IMG/VR virus record: IMGVR_UViG_3300031507_000128
Coordinates: 1-25,420 of that record
Reading direction: 5' to 3' (one strand)
Length of the DNA: 25,420 nucleotides
Source: a virus
The translations under genes were made by a program, and so were the position numbers. Shown piece by piece: positions 1,881 to 21,854 of the stretch. The notes beneath the pieces were generated by a model. The model saw only the letters and a list, made by a program, of their open reading frames with translations, was not told the origin of the DNA and searched no databases. Position 1 is the first letter of the stretch. Every line of letters starts with the position of its first letter.

Positions 1881-2726
1881 CTAGATCGACAACAGGTCGC
1901 GCACCGCCACGAGCGGCTCGGCCGATGGTCCAGTCACCACGATCTCGGCGACATCGGACCATTTGCCGCCGGCGACCGTGTAGCGCGTGGCCACGCTCTC
2001 GATCGCGAAGCGCGCGAAGGCGTCGCGGGTTTCCGGGACGTCGTTGACCGACAGGATGAACCGGCCGGCGATCGCGGCCAGGCGCACGGCCAGGCGGACG
2101 AAGTCGGCGCGCGTAAAGACGCCGGCGCCGTAGTCGGTCTCCGATCCCCAATAGGGCGGATCGAGATAGAACAGCGTCGTCGGCGAATCGTAGCGCGCGA
2201 GAAAATCCGTCCATGGCAGGCATTCGATCACGACGCCGGCCAGGCGATCGTGGATCTCATCCAGCAGCGGCCCGAGCTTGGTGACGTCGAAGCGCGAGGG
2301 GCCGTTGGTGTCGATGCCGAAGCTGCGCCCCGCGACCTTGCCGCCGAACGCCAGGCGCTGCAGATAGAGAAAGCGCCCTGCCCGCTCCAGATCCGTCAGC
2401 GTGTCCGGATTGGAGGCCGCGAGGCGTTCGAACTCCGCGCGCGAGGCGATCTGGAATTTCAGCGTCTCCATGAACTGCGGATAATGCCGCTGCAGGATGC
2501 GGAACAACGTCGCGACGTCGCGCGAGACGTCGTTGACCACCTCCCGCCGCGGCGCCCAGCGCCGGCGGAAGAAAACCCCGCCCATGCCGACGAAGGGCTC
2601 GGCATAGGTTTCATGCGGCACTGCCTCGATGCGCCGCGCGAGCTGCTCGCCGAGCCGGCGCTTGCCGCCGATATAGGCCGCGGCGGGCCGAATGGGCATC
2701 ACCGCCCGAAAGCTGTCGTCAGTCAT
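1881..2726 (-). CDS. D12-class DNA adenine (N6) methyltransferase
   Basis: S-adenosylmethionine-dependent adenine methyltransferase of the Dam/D12 (MethyltransfD12) family. Family motifs are in the expected order: YIGGKR near residues 18-23 before motif I, AdoMet-binding FVGMGG (45-50), and the catalytic motif IV DPPYW (189-193). The length, 281 aa, is normal. No restriction endonuclease lies next to it, so it is an orphan methylase. Such genes are common at the lysis-side end of temperate-phage genomes, where they may protect phage DNA from host restriction or adjust host methylation. The start at 2726 (MTDDSF) is weakly supported; an in-frame ATG nine codons later (MPIRPAAAYIGG) also fits the usual family N-terminus. 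The downstream neighbour is convergent and non-phage, so this gene probably marks the left limit of the phage block. Target sequence is unknown. Confidence 0.9.
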   Translation of the reverse strand: MTDDSFRAVMPIRPAAAYIGGKRRLGEQLARRIEAVPHETYAEPFVGMGGVFFRRRWAPRREVVNDVSRDVATLFRILQRHYPQFMETLKFQIASRAEFERLAASNPDTLTDLERAGRFLYLQRLAFGGKVAGRSFGIDTNGPSRFDVTKLGPLLDEIHDRLAGVVIECLPWTDFLARYDSPTTLFYLDPPYWGSETDYGAGVFTRADFVRLAVRLAAIAGRFILSVNDVPETRDAFARFAIESVATRYTVAGGKWSDVAEIVVTGPSAEPLVAVRDLLSI

Positions 2727-15954: not shown

Positions 15955-18486
15955 TTACCTCGCCGCCAGCCGGCCGCGCTGATTGAGCACGCGGCTGGTG
16001 GCGCTGCCGGGATTGGCCGCGTTCTTGGCGGTGATCGAGTCGACGAACACGGTGAGATCGAGCCCGCCATTGTCATTGTTGCGCTGCTGGGTCTGGCCGG
16101 CGCGACTGGAATCCTCGATCATGTTGACCGTGACCTGCGGCGCCTGCGCGCCATAGGCCTGCGCCATCTGGCCGGGCCAGCCGACGACCTCGCCGCGTTT
16201 CGCGATGATCGGCACTTCGTCGCCGACGATGCCACCATCATGCATGCGCCGGGCTCCGGCAAACGCCGAAAAGTCGACGGTCCGAGTGGGCATGCCGGGA
16301 TCGCCGACCACGCCGCCGGCATGGTGGATCGCGGCGATCGCATCGAGACCTGCCGTCGGCGCCGCGGCGCCGCCGCCGAACCCGAGCACGCTGCCGAGGC
16401 TGAAGCCGCTCCCGGAAATCGTGTTCTGCAGCGCCTGCATCAACGGCTGCACGATCATGATCTTGATCACCATCTGCTCTATCGCGGTCACGATCGCCTT
16501 GCCCATGTTGGTGAAGGCGTCGCCGGCGCTCTTCGCCCCCGAGACGATGTCAGTCAGGCCCTGCGTCAGGTTGCTCTCGATCGACGACGAGATGTCGTGA
16601 AAGGCATTGTTGAGCCGGATGCCGGCCGCATAAGTCGAGTTCAGCGCCGCTGGCACGTCGTTGCCGTAGATGCCCTTGAGCTGGGTCGCGATCTGAACAT
16701 CCTCCTGCGACAGGAACGCGGTCTTGCGGCCGAACTCGATCTGGCTGACCTGGCGCGCCTTGGCCAGCGCATCCGCCGCGGCGCCGGCCTGCTGGCCGAG
16801 CCCGCTCATCTCGGCCTTCAGCTTCGCAGCCTCCGGGGTCAACCCGTCCTTCATGCCGGCCGCGGTGAGTTGGGCGATGATCTTGAACTTCTCCTGTTCG
16901 CCGGCGGCGTCCGAGACCGCGAGCGACGCGGCCTTGGTGGTCTCGATATATTTCAGGACGGATTCGGTGGCGCGGTCGTAGGCCGAGGTATCGGGCTTGG
17001 CCGCATTGGGGTCCTTCGAGACATCCGGGAAAACCTTGTTCTGGATGCCGTTGAGCTGATCAGTCGCTGCGGCCACATTGGCTGGATTCGAGAGCCCGCT
17101 CGCCAGCCGCTGCCGCGCCGCCAGCATGGCCATATCGGCCGGATTCGAGGAAATGCCGAGCGAAGCCTCCGACGCCGCGCGGCCCTCCGGAGTCGTCGTC
17201 AGATTCATGAAGGCGGTCGCACCGCGGTTCATCTGCGTTTGGAACCAGCCCGGCGCTTCGCCGAGCTTGCTCATCATCTTCGAAATCCAATCGAATGCAG
17301 TCGCCATGCTCTCGACGATATTCACCCAGGCCTCGCGCATGGCGATGCCGGCCTGCGTCAACAGGTCCTGGATCGGATGCCAGCGCTCGCTCAGGATCTT
17401 CTCGGCGGCGTCGAGCCGGTTCTGCAATGCGACCGCGTTATCGATCGAGGCCTGCGAAATCAGATCGCTCGATTTGATCTCGTTGGCAGAGGCCAGCATC
17501 TTGCTCAGATAGTCGGAATCCTTGGCGAGGTTGGCGGCGACCCCGTCGCCGAGGAAGGTCTTGGCGACGTCGAGCGCGGCCAGGCGTTCGCCCTTCTGCA
17601 TGGCCTGATCAATCAGGCTTGAGATCGCCTGAACCCGCGCCTCGATCGTGTTGGCGCTCGACAGTTGCCCGATGCCGGAATTGCCACCGAAATTACCGGC
17701 CTTCAGCAAATCGCTAAGCCGGTTCTGCGCCGAGGTGCCGCCGAGCTGGTCTGAGGTGGCGTCGCGCAGCTTCGCGAGCGCCGCCGTCAAGGCATCGACC
17801 GGCAATCGCGCATCGGCCGCCGATTTGGTGATGCGCTGGAAGAAATCGGTCGAGACGCCGGAGGCGACGGCCTTCTCCGATAGCGCGACATATTCGGCGA
17901 GCTTCTCGCCGCCGAGCCGCCAGGCCTCGCCGACATCTTCGATGCCCTTGACCGCGAGCGTGAACCACCCGACCAGTCGCAACGCGGGCGACAGGAACGA
18001 CAGCAGCGACGTCACGGCCGTGCCGATGGTTGGGCTAAAGGCCTCCATGGCGACGCCGGCGGAGCGGACACCGGACGTATAGGCGAGCATGCTGGGGCTT
18101 GCCTTCTCCGCCGCACCCGCGAGCGCGATCAGCCCGGTGCCGGCATAATTGGTCGCGGTCACGATGCCAGCCGCCACCGCCGCCAGCGCCGTGTTGGCGA
18201 CGCCCAGTGCGGCCGGCGCCATCTCGTTGACGACGCCCCGGAATGCCGGCGAGAACGCATAGGCAGCCTCCGCCGCCTGGCGTAGATGGTTCGCCGCGGT
18301 CGCCGCGCCCTCGCCGGTGATGCGAAAGCCCTCGGCATTGTCCTGGGAGATCGCCCGGCTCCTGGCCAGGTTGTCATTCGCCGCCTGAATCGAGGCCGTC
18401 AACCGATTGAGCGCAGCCGTGGCGTCATCGACGCCGTCGGCCCTGCCCTTGATCGTGACGTTGCGGATGACATCGAGTGAAGGCAT
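15955..18486 (-). CDS. H: Tail tape measure protein (843 aa)
   Basis: Sets tail length and is ejected into the host with DNA. Evidence: large size, overall alpha-helical Ala-rich composition, hydrophobic segments (about residues 90-125 and 165-182), and repetitive Ala/Gln/Asp/Leu helices. The C-terminal domain is typical of lambda-type tape measures: an SIESNLTQGLTDIVSGAKSA block (about 640-660), then a Gly-rich part and GARRMHDGGIVGDEVPIIAK. It directly follows the G/GT chaperone gene, its known partner in assembly. At about 1.5 angstrom per residue, the family rule of thumb, this predicts a tail of roughly 125 nm. The ATG (18484-18486) overlaps the GT stop as TGATG. It is intact and without frameshift. 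Confidence 0.9.
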   Translation of the reverse strand: MPSLDVIRNVTIKGRADGVDDATAALNRLTASIQAANDNLARSRAISQDNAEGFRITGEGAATAANHLRQAAEAAYAFSPAFRGVVNEMAPAALGVANTALAAVAAGIVTATNYAGTGLIALAGAAEKASPSMLAYTSGVRSAGVAMEAFSPTIGTAVTSLLSFLSPALRLVGWFTLAVKGIEDVGEAWRLGGEKLAEYVALSEKAVASGVSTDFFQRITKSAADARLPVDALTAALAKLRDATSDQLGGTSAQNRLSDLLKAGNFGGNSGIGQLSSANTIEARVQAISSLIDQAMQKGERLAALDVAKTFLGDGVAANLAKDSDYLSKMLASANEIKSSDLISQASIDNAVALQNRLDAAEKILSERWHPIQDLLTQAGIAMREAWVNIVESMATAFDWISKMMSKLGEAPGWFQTQMNRGATAFMNLTTTPEGRAASEASLGISSNPADMAMLAARQRLASGLSNPANVAAATDQLNGIQNKVFPDVSKDPNAAKPDTSAYDRATESVLKYIETTKAASLAVSDAAGEQEKFKIIAQLTAAGMKDGLTPEAAKLKAEMSGLGQQAGAAADALAKARQVSQIEFGRKTAFLSQEDVQIATQLKGIYGNDVPAALNSTYAAGIRLNNAFHDISSSIESNLTQGLTDIVSGAKSAGDAFTNMGKAIVTAIEQMVIKIMIVQPLMQALQNTISGSGFSLGSVLGFGGGAAAPTAGLDAIAAIHHAGGVVGDPGMPTRTVDFSAFAGARRMHDGGIVGDEVPIIAKRGEVVGWPGQMAQAYGAQAPQVTVNMIEDSSRAGQTQQRNNDNGGLDLTVFVDSITAKNAANPGSATSRVLNQRGRLAAR

Positions 18487-19225
18487 CAGTCTGCTTTCTT
18501 GTGGTAGTCGCGAAACGCGGCATCCAGCGCGTGCATCAGCGCGCTGAAACGGTCGAATTCATCACCGGCGATGCGGTAGCGCTCGGCGAAGCGGTCGATC
18601 GACGACCACGGGATCGGGCCAATGGCAAAGCCAGCGTGGCGGTCCGAGGACAGTGACCAGAACGCCGACCACTCGAAGGTCAGATGTCCGAATAGATCCG
18701 GTCTGGTGGCGACGCAGGGCAGCGTCGCAAGATCGGCACCGGCAGCGCGGGCCGCATTGGTGATGCCCTCGAAGGTCTCGCCCCAGTCCAGCTGCCAGAC
18801 CAGGACGTCGATCAGTTTTTTGTTTCGGTTTCCGAAATGGCCTTCTGGCGCTGCGCTACCACCGAGCCTGCATAAGCGCAGCCGGCCTGGAACACGCGGA
18901 AATCCGGATCGAGCAGCAGCTTCTCACCGAGCGCGCGGGTATACGGAATCGGCGTGACGCCGTCGTCCTCGGTCAGGCCCTCGACGTCGAGCACCACCGT
19001 CTCCAGCAGCAGCCTGCCGGCGATGCGGTCCTGGTCGGCCGGCGCGACACCCTCGACCCGCTGCACGCGCGGGATCTCGCGCACCAGCTTGCCCTCGAGC
19101 AGGCGATAGTCACTGTTGTTGGTGCCGCGCGCCTTGATGCGCACGCCAGGCAAGTCAGGGATGTTCTCGACCCAGTCGCCCTGCTCGATGACGGCGGAAT
19201 CGACCTTGATAGCGGAAAGTTTCAT
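18486..19225 (-). CDS. GT: Tail assembly chaperone GT, -1 frameshift fusion (246 aa)
   Basis: Long form of the tail chaperone, made when ribosomes shift -1 at 18815-18821 near the end of the G reading frame. The frame downstream (18486-18815) is open without its own plausible start. After the slip it reads LIDVLVWQLDWGETFEGITN, then SAFWSLSSDRHAGFA, GPIPWSSIDRFAERYRI, and ends in DYHKKAD. The product is 137 residues of G plus 109 residues of T. In lambda and many siphoviruses, G binds the tape measure and the T part recruits tail tube subunits. The product is needed for assembly but is absent from the virion. The TGA of T overlaps the tape measure ATG. The T frame cannot be found as a standalone gene and is easily missed by annotation. 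Confidence 0.85.
18812..19225 (-). CDS. G: Tail assembly chaperone G, short form (137 aa)
   Basis: The zero-frame product: starts MKLSAIKVDSAVIEQGDWVE, has a compact acidic fold typical of tail assembly chaperones, and stops with ETETKN and TGA at 18812-18814, directly after the slippery sequence. GAGG stands a few bases before the ATG (19223-19225). It is the first gene after the embedded tRNA and lies between the tail tube and tape measure genes, exactly the lambda G position. In lambda the G to GT ratio is set by the shift efficiency and matters for tail assembly. No specific family was checked by search. Confidence 0.85.
   Translation of the reverse strand: MKLSAIKVDSAVIEQGDWVENIPDLPGVRIKARGTNNSDYRLLEGKLVREIPRVQRVEGVAPADQDRIAGRLLLETVVLDVEGLTEDDGVTPIPYTRALGEKLLLDPDFRVFQAGCAYAGSVVAQRQKAISETETKN
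18815..18821 (-). promoter_or_regulatory. Programmed -1 ribosomal frameshift site A_AAA_AAC
   Basis: On the minus strand the G frame reads ACA AAA AAC TGA, so the heptamer A AAA AAC has the correct X_XXY_YYZ phase and the stop follows at once. Shifting back one base puts CTG ATC GAC next and opens 109 codons of T. An AGAAGG lies about 19 bases upstream, somewhat farther than the spacing known to stimulate -1 shifting. Downstream, GGTCT and AGACC could form a stem. The stimulators are uncertain; the heptamer itself is unambiguous. Confidence 0.85.
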
Positions 19226-19247
19226 AGGAACCTCACTGGTGAAAACG

Positions 19248-19324
19248 TGGTTGCAGGAGTCAGATTCGAACTGACGACTTCGAGGTTATGAGCCTCGCGA
19301 GCTACCGGGCTGCTCTACCCTGCA
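19248..19324 (-). tRNA. tRNA(CAU), initiator-type methionine tRNA features, 77 nt with encoded CCA
   Basis: A full cloverleaf lies on the minus strand: acceptor TGCAGGG with TCCTGCA (last pair G-U), D stem GAGC/GCTC, anticodon stem CGAGG/CCTCG with loop CTCATAA (anticodon CAU), T arm GTCAG-TTCGAAT-CTGAC, discriminator A and encoded CCA. The length of 77 and the A11-U24 pair are initiator hallmarks, and the D arm nearly matches bacterial fMet tRNA. Unlike a normal initiator, position 1-72 is U-A rather than a C-A mismatch, and the anticodon stem has two of the three G-C pairs (A29-U41 replaces one). It sits 16 bases after the tail tube stop and 22 bases before the G start, co-oriented, so it must be cut from the late mRNA. 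Confidence 0.92.
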
Positions 19325-19340
19325 GGGAAAAGCGGTGTGA

Positions 19341-20786
19341 CTACGGTAACCACCAGAAGCGGCCGATGCTCGCGGTGTAGCCATAGGTGGTATCTCGGAT
19401 GGCTTGGAAGCTCGCGTTGATCATCACATCGGCGTTCTTGCCCGAGACCGACGGCGAGCCCGCCGAGAGCTTGATGCTCGGGAAATCGAACACCAGCGAC
19501 TCGTTGTTGCTGTCGGTGCGGCCGAGCCGGATGTCGAAACTCGTCAGCGTATTGTTCATGATCTTGTCGAGCACGGTCTTGTCGCCGAAATAGCAGTTCA
19601 GCGATCCCGAGGTCACGAACTCGCCGTTGCCGATGCCGATGGCGCCCAGTGAGCCGACCGCCATCTGCCGGCGCAGGTTGTTCTGAAAATCCCACTTCGC
19701 CGACATCACATAGTTCGGCCCGGCAATGGCCGAGCCGGCGAAGCCGATGCGGCCGACATTCGATGCTGTGTTCAGCACGTCATTGGTCGCTGCCGCGACG
19801 TCGGTGGCGCCGGCGAAGCGCGTGGTCTGTACCGCGCCGTCGGAGCCTATATAGGTCTTGGCATAGGTCGCGATCTTCGAGGCGTCGGCGGTGACCGAGA
19901 ACTTGTCGAGCGTCTGGCCGCGCAGATATTCATAAGTGACCGGCGAATGGTCGAGATACTGCCGCTCGATGGTGTTGGAGCGCAAGGTCGAGCCGTTGGT
20001 GAGAAAATCGCCGAGAAACACCTGTAGCGTCTTGCCGGTACCGGCATCGGCGGTCCAGCCCGTGGGCACGCGATCGAGCGTCAGCGAATGCGCGACGGCC
20101 GAGAGGATCCTCACAAAGTCATTGTCGGCCGCGGTGGCGAGCTGGAAGGCGGCCGAGGCGCCGCCGATCTTGCCCCACATCCCCGGCAGAATGCCGAGTG
20201 TGGTGAAATCCAGCGCGGTCGAGGTCAGGTGATTGCCAGAGGTCGCGTCGGCGACGATATCGCCAGAGGCTGCCTGGAAGCCGACGACGCGGATATTCGC
20301 GGCCGCCGGCGGCGAGGCCTCCGCGGTGAAGCTCGAGGCCGGAAACACCACCGATGTCGCACCGCTCGAGGCGACCACGAACAGGCCGTTATTCGCCGGG
20401 GTCGCGAAGCCGGAGGCCAGCACCAGCATCTGCGCCTTGAAGGCGGTACCAGCCGCGACCGTCGCCGTGGTGGTGGTCAGCGCGGTGACCGCCTGCGAGG
20501 GCAGATTGGTCCATGCGCCCTGCAGCGCCTCCTCCATGTCATCGTCCATGGTCTGGAACGACATCTCGCCGGCAACATCGCCGCCGGCCTGCATGCCGAC
20601 CAGGATAAGGTCGGGCACCTGGCGGTCGCTGCGGATCTCGTTGGAGATCACCGTCTGCGGATTGACCGCCAGACTCGAGGAGACCTCGCGAATGCCCTTG
20701 AAGGCCGGCGTGGTCGGCGTGACGCCGAAGGTGGTCTCGCGCACCTTGGCGATGGCAACGCGGTTCGTCGATTGAAGGGCGACCAT
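19341..20786 (-). CDS. V: Major tail tube protein (481 aa)
   Basis: Forms the stacked rings of the tail tube. Starts MVALQSTNRVAIAKVRETTF, has SNEIRSDRQVPDLILVGMQA and GEMSFQTMDDDMEEALQGAW, a central Thr/Ala/Gly-rich insertion (about residues 100-240), and a C-terminal part with GRTDSNNESLVFDFPSIKLS and an ending in FWWLP. This pattern fits the phage tail tube proteins of the Phage_tube_2 type; the family name is given from memory. It is longer than lambda gpV (246 aa), which the insertion may explain as surface domains. AAGGAG stands 7 bases before the ATG at 20784-20786, so the start is firm and a TTG two codons upstream is not used. Directly downstream is the tRNA gene. Expression should be among the highest in the operon. 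Confidence 0.85.
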   Translation of the reverse strand: MVALQSTNRVAIAKVRETTFGVTPTTPAFKGIREVSSSLAVNPQTVISNEIRSDRQVPDLILVGMQAGGDVAGEMSFQTMDDDMEEALQGAWTNLPSQAVTALTTTTATVAAGTAFKAQMLVLASGFATPANNGLFVVASSGATSVVFPASSFTAEASPPAAANIRVVGFQAASGDIVADATSGNHLTSTALDFTTLGILPGMWGKIGGASAAFQLATAADNDFVRILSAVAHSLTLDRVPTGWTADAGTGKTLQVFLGDFLTNGSTLRSNTIERQYLDHSPVTYEYLRGQTLDKFSVTADASKIATYAKTYIGSDGAVQTTRFAGATDVAAATNDVLNTASNVGRIGFAGSAIAGPNYVMSAKWDFQNNLRRQMAVGSLGAIGIGNGEFVTSGSLNCYFGDKTVLDKIMNNTLTSFDIRLGRTDSNNESLVFDFPSIKLSAGSPSVSGKNADVMINASFQAIRDTTYGYTASIGRFWWLP

Positions 20787-20816
20787 GATCAAGCTCCTTG
20801 AAAAAAGGTGTTCAAC

Positions 20817-21224
20817 CTACCTGATGAGATCGAAGCGATAGGTCACGACGAACGGCAGCAGATAGAACACGCCGGAACGGTTCGATTTTTCGAACGCGGC
20901 CGGCGCGGCTTCGAACGTGGAGACGCCGTCGAACTTCTGTTCGCGAAACCAGTCGCGCAGCGTGTCGACCAGCACCATCGCGTCGGTCAGCCCACTCATA
21001 TTGAGGATATGAACGACGAAACGAATGGCGCCGGTCTCCCGGAAGATCGCAGGCCGCGCGCCGACATTGATGCGGTTCTCGTTAGCGACCGGGTATTCGA
21101 CGGTCAGATGCTGCGTCGATGGCAGTGGTGCGGCATCGTTCTCATCGAAGAATGGGCATGCCGACAGGCCCGGCCATGTCGAGAGCCTCGCCTCGACCGC
21201 TGTTTTGACGGCTGCACTCGCCAT
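20817..21224 (-). CDS. Tail terminator-like protein, DUF4128-type (lambda U position, 135 aa)
   Basis: Starts MASAAVKTAVEARLSTWPGL and has PLPSTQHLTVEYPVANENRI and a long helix (SGLTDAMVLVDTLRDWFREQ). Size, alpha/beta pattern and place directly before the tail tube gene match phage tail terminator proteins such as lambda gpU, which cap the finished tail and join it to the head. The DUF4128 assignment is by resemblance from memory. The start ATG at 21222-21224 lies six bases after the preceding stop. Intact. Confidence 0.75.
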   Translation of the reverse strand: MASAAVKTAVEARLSTWPGLSACPFFDENDAAPLPSTQHLTVEYPVANENRINVGARPAIFRETGAIRFVVHILNMSGLTDAMVLVDTLRDWFREQKFDGVSTFEAAPAAFEKSNRSGVFYLLPFVVTYRFDLIR

Positions 21225-21230
21225 CTCGCC

Positions 21231-21854
21231 TCACAGGTCCAAGATGATCGCCGGCTCGGCCACCGGCGGCGGCGAATGCGCCGGATGGTCGACGCCGGGC
21301 ACGGCCAAGAAGGTAAAGCTGATATCGGCGATAGCGCCGTAGCGCTCCCGCGCCAGCGCGGCAACAGCCTGGTACACGCCGTCTGGCGCCTTGCGTGACT
21401 CGCCTGGCCGCCCGTCATGCGGTTCGATCTCCGGCGCGTAGGCCGATAGCGGTGCGAAGACGATGCGGGTCACGCTGGCAGCGATGTCGGCAATCGACGT
21501 TGCGATCCCGTCGACGAAGACGCGGTGCGATTTCTGATAGCGACCGGTCCTCACAGGCGAATGGGCGACTAGCTGCTGTTCGATCCAGGTCAGCATGTCC
21601 GTCTTCAGATCGAAGATGCCGACAATGCTGCCATCTGGTCTGACGCTGTCGAGGTCAGCGCTCTCGCGGCCGTCGACCAGCGTCCGGTAGGGTACGGACC
21701 TCCCGAGGGCCGCGGCGTTGATCGCCTCGGCATCCGCCAGGGCCTGGCGCGCGATCTCGGCGATCGCAGCGCTGACGGCCGCGGGCCCCAACGATTCGGA
21801 TATGATCAAATGCAGATCATCCTGATTGTCGACATCAAAGCTTCCCGACAGCAT
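21231..21854 (-). CDS. Head-tail joining / minor tail protein, HK97 gp10-like (lambda Z position, 207 aa)
   Basis: Starts MLSGSFDVDNQDDLHLIISE. Its central motif, AHSPVRTGRYQKSHRVFVDG (about residues 96-115), is typical of the HK97 gp10-like proteins ('S-P-V-x-T-G-x-x-x-x-S'), which join tail to neck, and it sits in the lambda Z position. A Pro-rich C-terminus (HPAHSPPPVAEPAIILDL) follows. The chosen ATG (21852-21854) overlaps the preceding stop as TGATG; a GTG four codons earlier would overlap more. Function is inferred from motif and order. Confidence 0.75.
   Translation of the reverse strand: MLSGSFDVDNQDDLHLIISESLGPAAVSAAIAEIARQALADAEAINAAALGRSVPYRTLVDGRESADLDSVRPDGSIVGIFDLKTDMLTWIEQQLVAHSPVRTGRYQKSHRVFVDGIATSIADIAASVTRIVFAPLSAYAPEIEPHDGRPGESRKAPDGVYQAVAALARERYGAIADISFTFLAVPGVDHPAHSPPPVAEPAIILDL

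Follow-up and report, generated by a model that had tools for sequence, protein, structure and literature searches.

Single tRNA genes with a CAU anticodon, tRNA-fMet genes among them, have been described in the phiLM21-like prophages of Sinorhizobium (PMC12429752). These elements resemble the locus presented here in two respects: each carries one CAU tRNA gene, and each belongs to a temperate phage genome of the alphaproteobacteria. Initiator-like tRNAs of phages are therefore already known, and it is the location between the tail tube and tail chaperone genes that is unusual. The second point of reference is the cellular initiator tRNA of the alphaproteobacteria, which is encoded as the last gene of rRNA operons. 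It shares with the present tRNA a length of 77 nt, the A11-U24 pair, a D loop containing 17a, the CAU anticodon, an anticodon stem with A29-U41, G30-C40 and G31-C39 and, in most copies, A73. It differs in having mostly C1 opposed to A72 without pairing, G4-C69, G9 and A57. The mismatch at 1-72 is the classical bacterial mark for formylation (PMC9976931).

The window, by which is meant the whole stretch of 25,420 bases of viral DNA that was analysed, contains a single tRNA gene, identified by ARAGORN as tRNA-Met with anticodon CAU. Rfam family RF00005 matches the same positions with a score of 60.6 bits (E 4.9e-11), above the curated cut-off of 29, and the cloverleaf together with a CCA encoded in the gene completes the features expected of a family member. 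Divided by structural segment the gene reads TGCAGGG TA GAGC AGCCCGGTA GCTC G CGAGG CTCATAA CCTCG AAGTC GTCAG TTCGAAT CTGAC TCCTGCA A CCA, and all 21 of its 21 stem pairs are standard, G7-U66 included. The gene is real, complete and initiator-like, and from its sequence it appears functional. Three marks of initiators are present, namely the CAU anticodon, A11-U24 and a 77-nt body with a long D loop. Two others are not: the E. coli-type run of three G-C pairs (29-41, 30-40 and 31-39) is broken by an A-U pair at 29-41, and a Watson-Crick pair, U1-A72, is formed where the classical initiator has none. The initial annotation, which had reported a complete initiator-like tRNA(CAU) here, gave the correct coordinates, as both programs agree, and was equally right about A11-U24, the length, the anticodon and U1-A72. 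The features of the region are collected in Table 1.

Table 1. Features of the tail region around the tRNA gene (positions in the window).
Feature	Position	Strand	Characteristics and evidence
Tail terminator gene, upstream of the tube gene	20817..21224	-	phrog_179 5.6e-9
Tail tube protein gene, 481 aa	19341..20786	-	ATG start; Phage_tube_2 PF18906 6.2e-35; phrog_290 7e-68; alignment
Spacer, tube stop codon to tRNA nucleotide 1, 16 nt	19325..19340	-	Sequence; expected RNase P leader
Initiator-like tRNA-Met(CAU) gene	19248..19324	-	U1-A72, A11-U24, A29-U41/G30-C40/G31-C39; ARAGORN, Rfam RF00005 and stem pairs
Spacer, tRNA CCA to chaperone ATG, 22 nt	19226..19247	-	Sequence; contains GAGG (19231-19234), the Shine-Dalgarno of the chaperone
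Tail assembly chaperone gene, 137 aa, G-like	18812..19225	-	phrog_313 1.9e-5 (weak); 35 relatives have a homologue behind their tube gene
Slippery heptamer A AAA AAC at chaperone end, probable programmed -1 frameshift	18815..18821	-	Heptamer in relatives
Open -1 frame (T-like extension)	18486..18820	-	Runs as far as the tape measure start
Tail tape measure protein gene	15955..18486	-	phrog_2335 1.6e-17

The sequence and the gene annotation confirm that the tRNA is co-oriented with the tube and chaperone genes and separated from them by the two short spacers that had been described. The listed tube ORF extends to 20792 from an upstream TTG, and the ATG at 20786 was assigned as the start. Assignment of the chaperone is strengthened by its 3' end, because the A AAA AAC site is followed by an open -1 frame to 18486 and the heptamer is conserved in relatives. 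It is placed immediately ahead of the chaperone stop codon, and in 8 relatives it likewise occurs about 400 nt past the chaperone start. A programmed -1 frameshift at this site would probably produce a chaperone fusion of the G-T type. The tail-gene strand also carries, close to the end of the record, a DNA methyltransferase gene (1881-2726, minus strand; phrog_56 2.7e-70).

A search of related phages for a tRNA at the same junction, as the initial annotation had suggested, was carried out on 35 relatives with adjacent tube and chaperone genes, which were drawn from viral contigs and genomes and include a few near-duplicates. ARAGORN, applied to L002-L030 and further loci, finds a tRNA at the junction in none of the 35. 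By parsimony the insertion is the derived state, because the nearest relatives (L007 and L008, with a tube protein 88% identical) have only 14 nt between the two genes. The junction is an insertion hotspot, because in 16 of the 35 relatives it holds 158-2133 nt with differing contents, many with unrelated ORFs on either strand; the remaining 19 junctions are compact (7-89 nt). Unrelated cargo, with some of the ORFs unnamed, is present at L003, L004, L011, L014, L016, L018, L021 and L023-L026. It includes a protein with weak GIY-YIG and helix-turn-helix (HTH) matches (L016), a Gcw_chp protein (L025), reverse-strand ORFs resembling lipoproteins (L003 and L014) and a short reverse-strand ORF, beginning MSEPRD, common to L018, L021 and L024. 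Other structured RNA in the longer junctions was considered and rejected, Rfam detecting no RNA family in the 11 loci searched. Several relatives have tRNAs at other places in their records (Asn, Cys, Ser, Arg and one CAU tRNA). The junction sequence of the window matched no other viral contig, and a search with the chaperone protein gave no relatives beyond those already collected.

These comparisons indicate that the tRNA is a recent, lineage-specific insertion, one cargo among several at the hotspot. Like a moron, it is found in one lineage and is missing between the same genes in relatives (0/35), but a promoter and terminator of its own, also expected of a moron, are not detected: a consensus scan of positions 18400-21300, which is weak evidence, finds neither above shuffle level. 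The gene is better termed a cargo insertion than a classical moron.

Comparison with cellular initiator tRNAs bears on both of the missing marks. Using a search pattern in which pairs 30-40 and 31-39 were fixed and pair 29-41 was left free, A29-U41 was found in all 45 of the initiator-type tRNAs read from alphaproteobacterial genomes. Because of this, a requirement for three G-C pairs does not appear to be universal for initiator tRNAs. The one changed anticodon-stem pair of the initial annotation is indeed a difference from E. coli, but it is the norm in alphaproteobacterial cells. The U1-A72 pair is rarer: among 289 alphaproteobacterial genomes the C1 pattern matches 138 and the T1 pattern 7. 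One of these 7 genomes (G045) has U1-A72 in four copies (L265, L271, L274 and L277), each located behind 23S-5S rRNA genes, and beyond these four no other initiator match is present in the genome even at two mismatches. The cell thus appears to live with a U1-A72 initiator. Because this is its only matching type, the absence of pairing at 1-72 would not be universal among initiators either, and U1-A72 would be compatible with initiation. With A29-U41 the norm of the class and U1-A72 the sole matching initiator of one cell, the label 'altered' that had been offered for the tRNA was overstated. In two further genomes (G031 and G163; L262, L263 and others) cellular initiator-type tRNAs with U1, U72 and C73 occur in four copies per genome. 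Relative to the cellular copies compared, the window tRNA is distinct at A4-U69, A9, G57, C27-G43 and G28-C42, and its anticodon loop (CUCAUAA) and C39 are identical to theirs.

The T1 pattern also matches 108 stretches in viral contigs, and 35 distinct U1-A72 tRNAs with CCA were read from the contigs fetched; some of these may be host genes at prophage edges. When the window copy is added, the stems of the 36 aligned tRNAs are 99.9% paired, double-sided changes number 119 and the covariation is 0.43 (0.15 when shuffled); some of the invariant pairs are at positions that the pattern had fixed, and only the free positions are informative. The nearest tRNA found is from a viral contig (L046, 71/77), followed by L136 and L141 (both 69/77), whereas the best cellular match is 67/77. 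A single compensatory double change (G28-C42 versus A28-U42) separates the window tRNA from this nearest known relative. Of 128 distinct viral-contig tRNAs, 18 have the A4-U69 pair, which is absent from all 23 cellular tRNAs compared; five viral contigs were matched by a strict pattern describing the type that combines A4-U69 with U1-A72. Pairs 27-29 vary widely among the phage copies, the cellular copies being mostly TCA. An origin from phage to phage is favoured by these comparisons, although it is not proven. Two other origins are disfavoured: a recent copy of a host initiator, given that the best cellular match is below the best viral one, though by a small margin, and a remnant of an attachment site, the gene being complete and internal. 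In Mesorhizobium phage vB_MseS-P1 (L032, 6211-6285) a stretch resembling the window tRNA, possibly an unannotated tRNA, lies within a gene annotated as a transcriptional repressor.

The reading best suited to these observations, to which we assign a probability of about 0.65, is that of a supplementary initiator-like tRNA, acquired as a cargo insertion and made late in infection. The gene, its place, its absence in relatives, the hotspot, the intact fold and the initiator marks can be read directly from the DNA; from them we infer co-transcription, excision, charging, formylation, use in initiation and a benefit to the phage. A phage-type initiator-like tRNA(CAU) would have been inserted, as a small cargo of the moron kind, at the tube/chaperone junction of a late tail operon and would be transcribed within the late mRNA. 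Because neither promoter nor terminator was found beside it, the tRNA is probably part of this transcript and cut out of it, the 5' end by RNase P and the 3' end by CCA-side processing of the host. Excision would split the tail mRNA, as had been anticipated from the co-oriented arrangement, and the chaperone would retain its GAGG Shine-Dalgarno in the 22-nt leader. The CAU anticodon would specify charging with methionine, A11-U24, the long D loop, G30-C40 and G31-C39 would confer initiator-like behaviour, and the product would add to the supply of start tRNA late in infection. Of the 'supplementary or altered start tRNA' first proposed, the supplementary part thus survives, with its use in initiation presumed, and the altered part claims too much.

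Three observations count against a supplementary start tRNA. Its 1-72 positions can pair, unlike those bearing the classical formylation mark; the insert comes from a single record of 25,420 bases, in which its own conservation is unmeasurable and a neutral insert is possible; and the margin of the phage over the cellular match is small (71 versus 67 of 77). That a U1-A72 tRNA may be formylated is favoured by the precedent of the G045 genome, and the classical mismatch rule points the other way (PMC9976931). Measurements of formylation with U1-A72 were not found in the open literature. E. coli tolerates weak pairing at 1-72, a point that is not used as evidence here.

The main rival is that the tRNA is neutral or transient cargo at the hotspot, which does little harm, brings no benefit and has not yet been lost. 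A lineage-specific insert in one record, at a junction that tolerates many unrelated inserts, is what would be expected in that case. The fully paired stems, the compensatory change at 28-42 and the folded state in which phage initiator-like tRNAs are kept as a group argue in the other direction, and we regard a neutral insert as unlikely.

A replacement start tRNA that resists a VapC-like nuclease of the initiator anticodon arm, escaping through pairs 27-43 and 28-42, seems improbable. It has been proposed that changes in the loop make phage tRNAs resistant to the anticodon nucleases of their hosts (PMC10264068), an enteric VapC cleaves tRNA-fMet between 38 and 39 (PMC4105405), and the diversity of pairs 27-29 in phage copies, set against the mostly TCA cellular ones, would be consistent with such an escape. 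However, in this arm only the two stem pairs differ from the cellular copies compared; the loop and C39 are as in cells and the known cut site is intact. Expression from a late operon would also be late for defence, and the host nuclease is a putative one. It is quite improbable, too, that U1-A72 denotes an elongator-type or dual-use tRNA-Met decoding internal AUG codons. The pairable 1-72 positions, and A9 and G57, which are unlike those of most cellular initiators, would fit this role, but the tRNA retains A11-U24, G30-C40 and G31-C39 together with a long D loop and the CUCAUAA loop, and one cellular genome has no matching initiator other than the U1-A72 type.

The initial annotation had also proposed that the tRNA may serve as an RNA-processing punctuation mark, and had named absence from related phages at this position as grounds for giving the idea up. 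On this reading the tRNA would be retained for the sake of its excision, which would part the tube mRNA from that of the chaperone and fix the ratio of the two. With a co-oriented tRNA, tight spacers and no promoter or terminator found, cleavage between the genes is to be expected. However, all 35 relatives lack the tRNA and have direct junctions or unrelated inserts instead, so that its position is not conserved; the tube, chaperone and tape measure module is retained in them without it, relatives that lack it also share the frameshift site in which the chaperone ends, and no known RNA family takes its place in the 11 relatives with longer spacers searched with Rfam. The chaperone, moreover, has a Shine-Dalgarno of its own, located 3' of the tRNA. 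The idea of a conserved punctuation device is rejected on the count of 0/35, and punctuation as the reason for which this one tRNA is kept is very unlikely; cleavage of the tail mRNA probably follows from where the tRNA lies and is not its purpose. Tardiphaga and Bradyrhizobium genomes that were searched have one matching initiator gene each, and replacement of a host initiator tRNA gene that prophage integration had disrupted, a tRNA-dependent lysogeny known in mycobacteriophages (PMC10865867), can nevertheless be dismissed as barely credible, as it needs expression in the lysogen from what is a late-operon gene with no promoter found, and no integrase is seen among the annotated ORFs of the window, a record of mostly late genes.

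No new means of regulating tail operons is revealed by the window tRNA. It does indicate that the tube/chaperone junction can accept RNA genes besides protein genes, and that phages harbour many folded initiator-like tRNAs whose 1-72 and stem pairs 27-29 are more varied than those of the sampled cellular copies. U1-A72, the sole matching initiator in one cell, offers a natural means of testing how strictly formylation depends on the 1-72 mismatch. A bolder and rather doubtful proposal would be that the U1-A72 initiator-like tRNAs form a distinct group spread by phages, which would provide them with a start tRNA that the host handles differently, put in the tail operon of this phage for late-only production; the difference in handling, proposed just as tentatively, would concern the transformylase, peptidyl-tRNA hydrolase and initiator-cutting toxins.

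The putative supplementary initiator-like tRNA can finally be set beside the systems already known. The phiLM21 copy is also initiator-like but is identical to the window tRNA at 60 of 77 positions, begins GTCGGAG and is located ahead of the terminase genes rather than in the tail operon. The phage tRNAs proposed to resist nucleases (PMC10264068) would do so through changed loops, whereas the loop of the window tRNA is unchanged. The viral-contig tRNAs that combine U1-A72 with A4-U69 (L046, L136, L141, L074, L111 and others) are closest in sequence, and L046, L136 and L141 additionally have the T stem GTCAG/CTGAC; they differ in genomic place, none being found at a tube/chaperone junction. In arrangement, the locus resembles the moron or cargo insertions of tail operons, in which an extra gene is found amid conserved structural genes at a variable site and relatives lack it, and it differs from the tail-operon morons in having no detected promoter or terminator and in that its cargo is an RNA gene.
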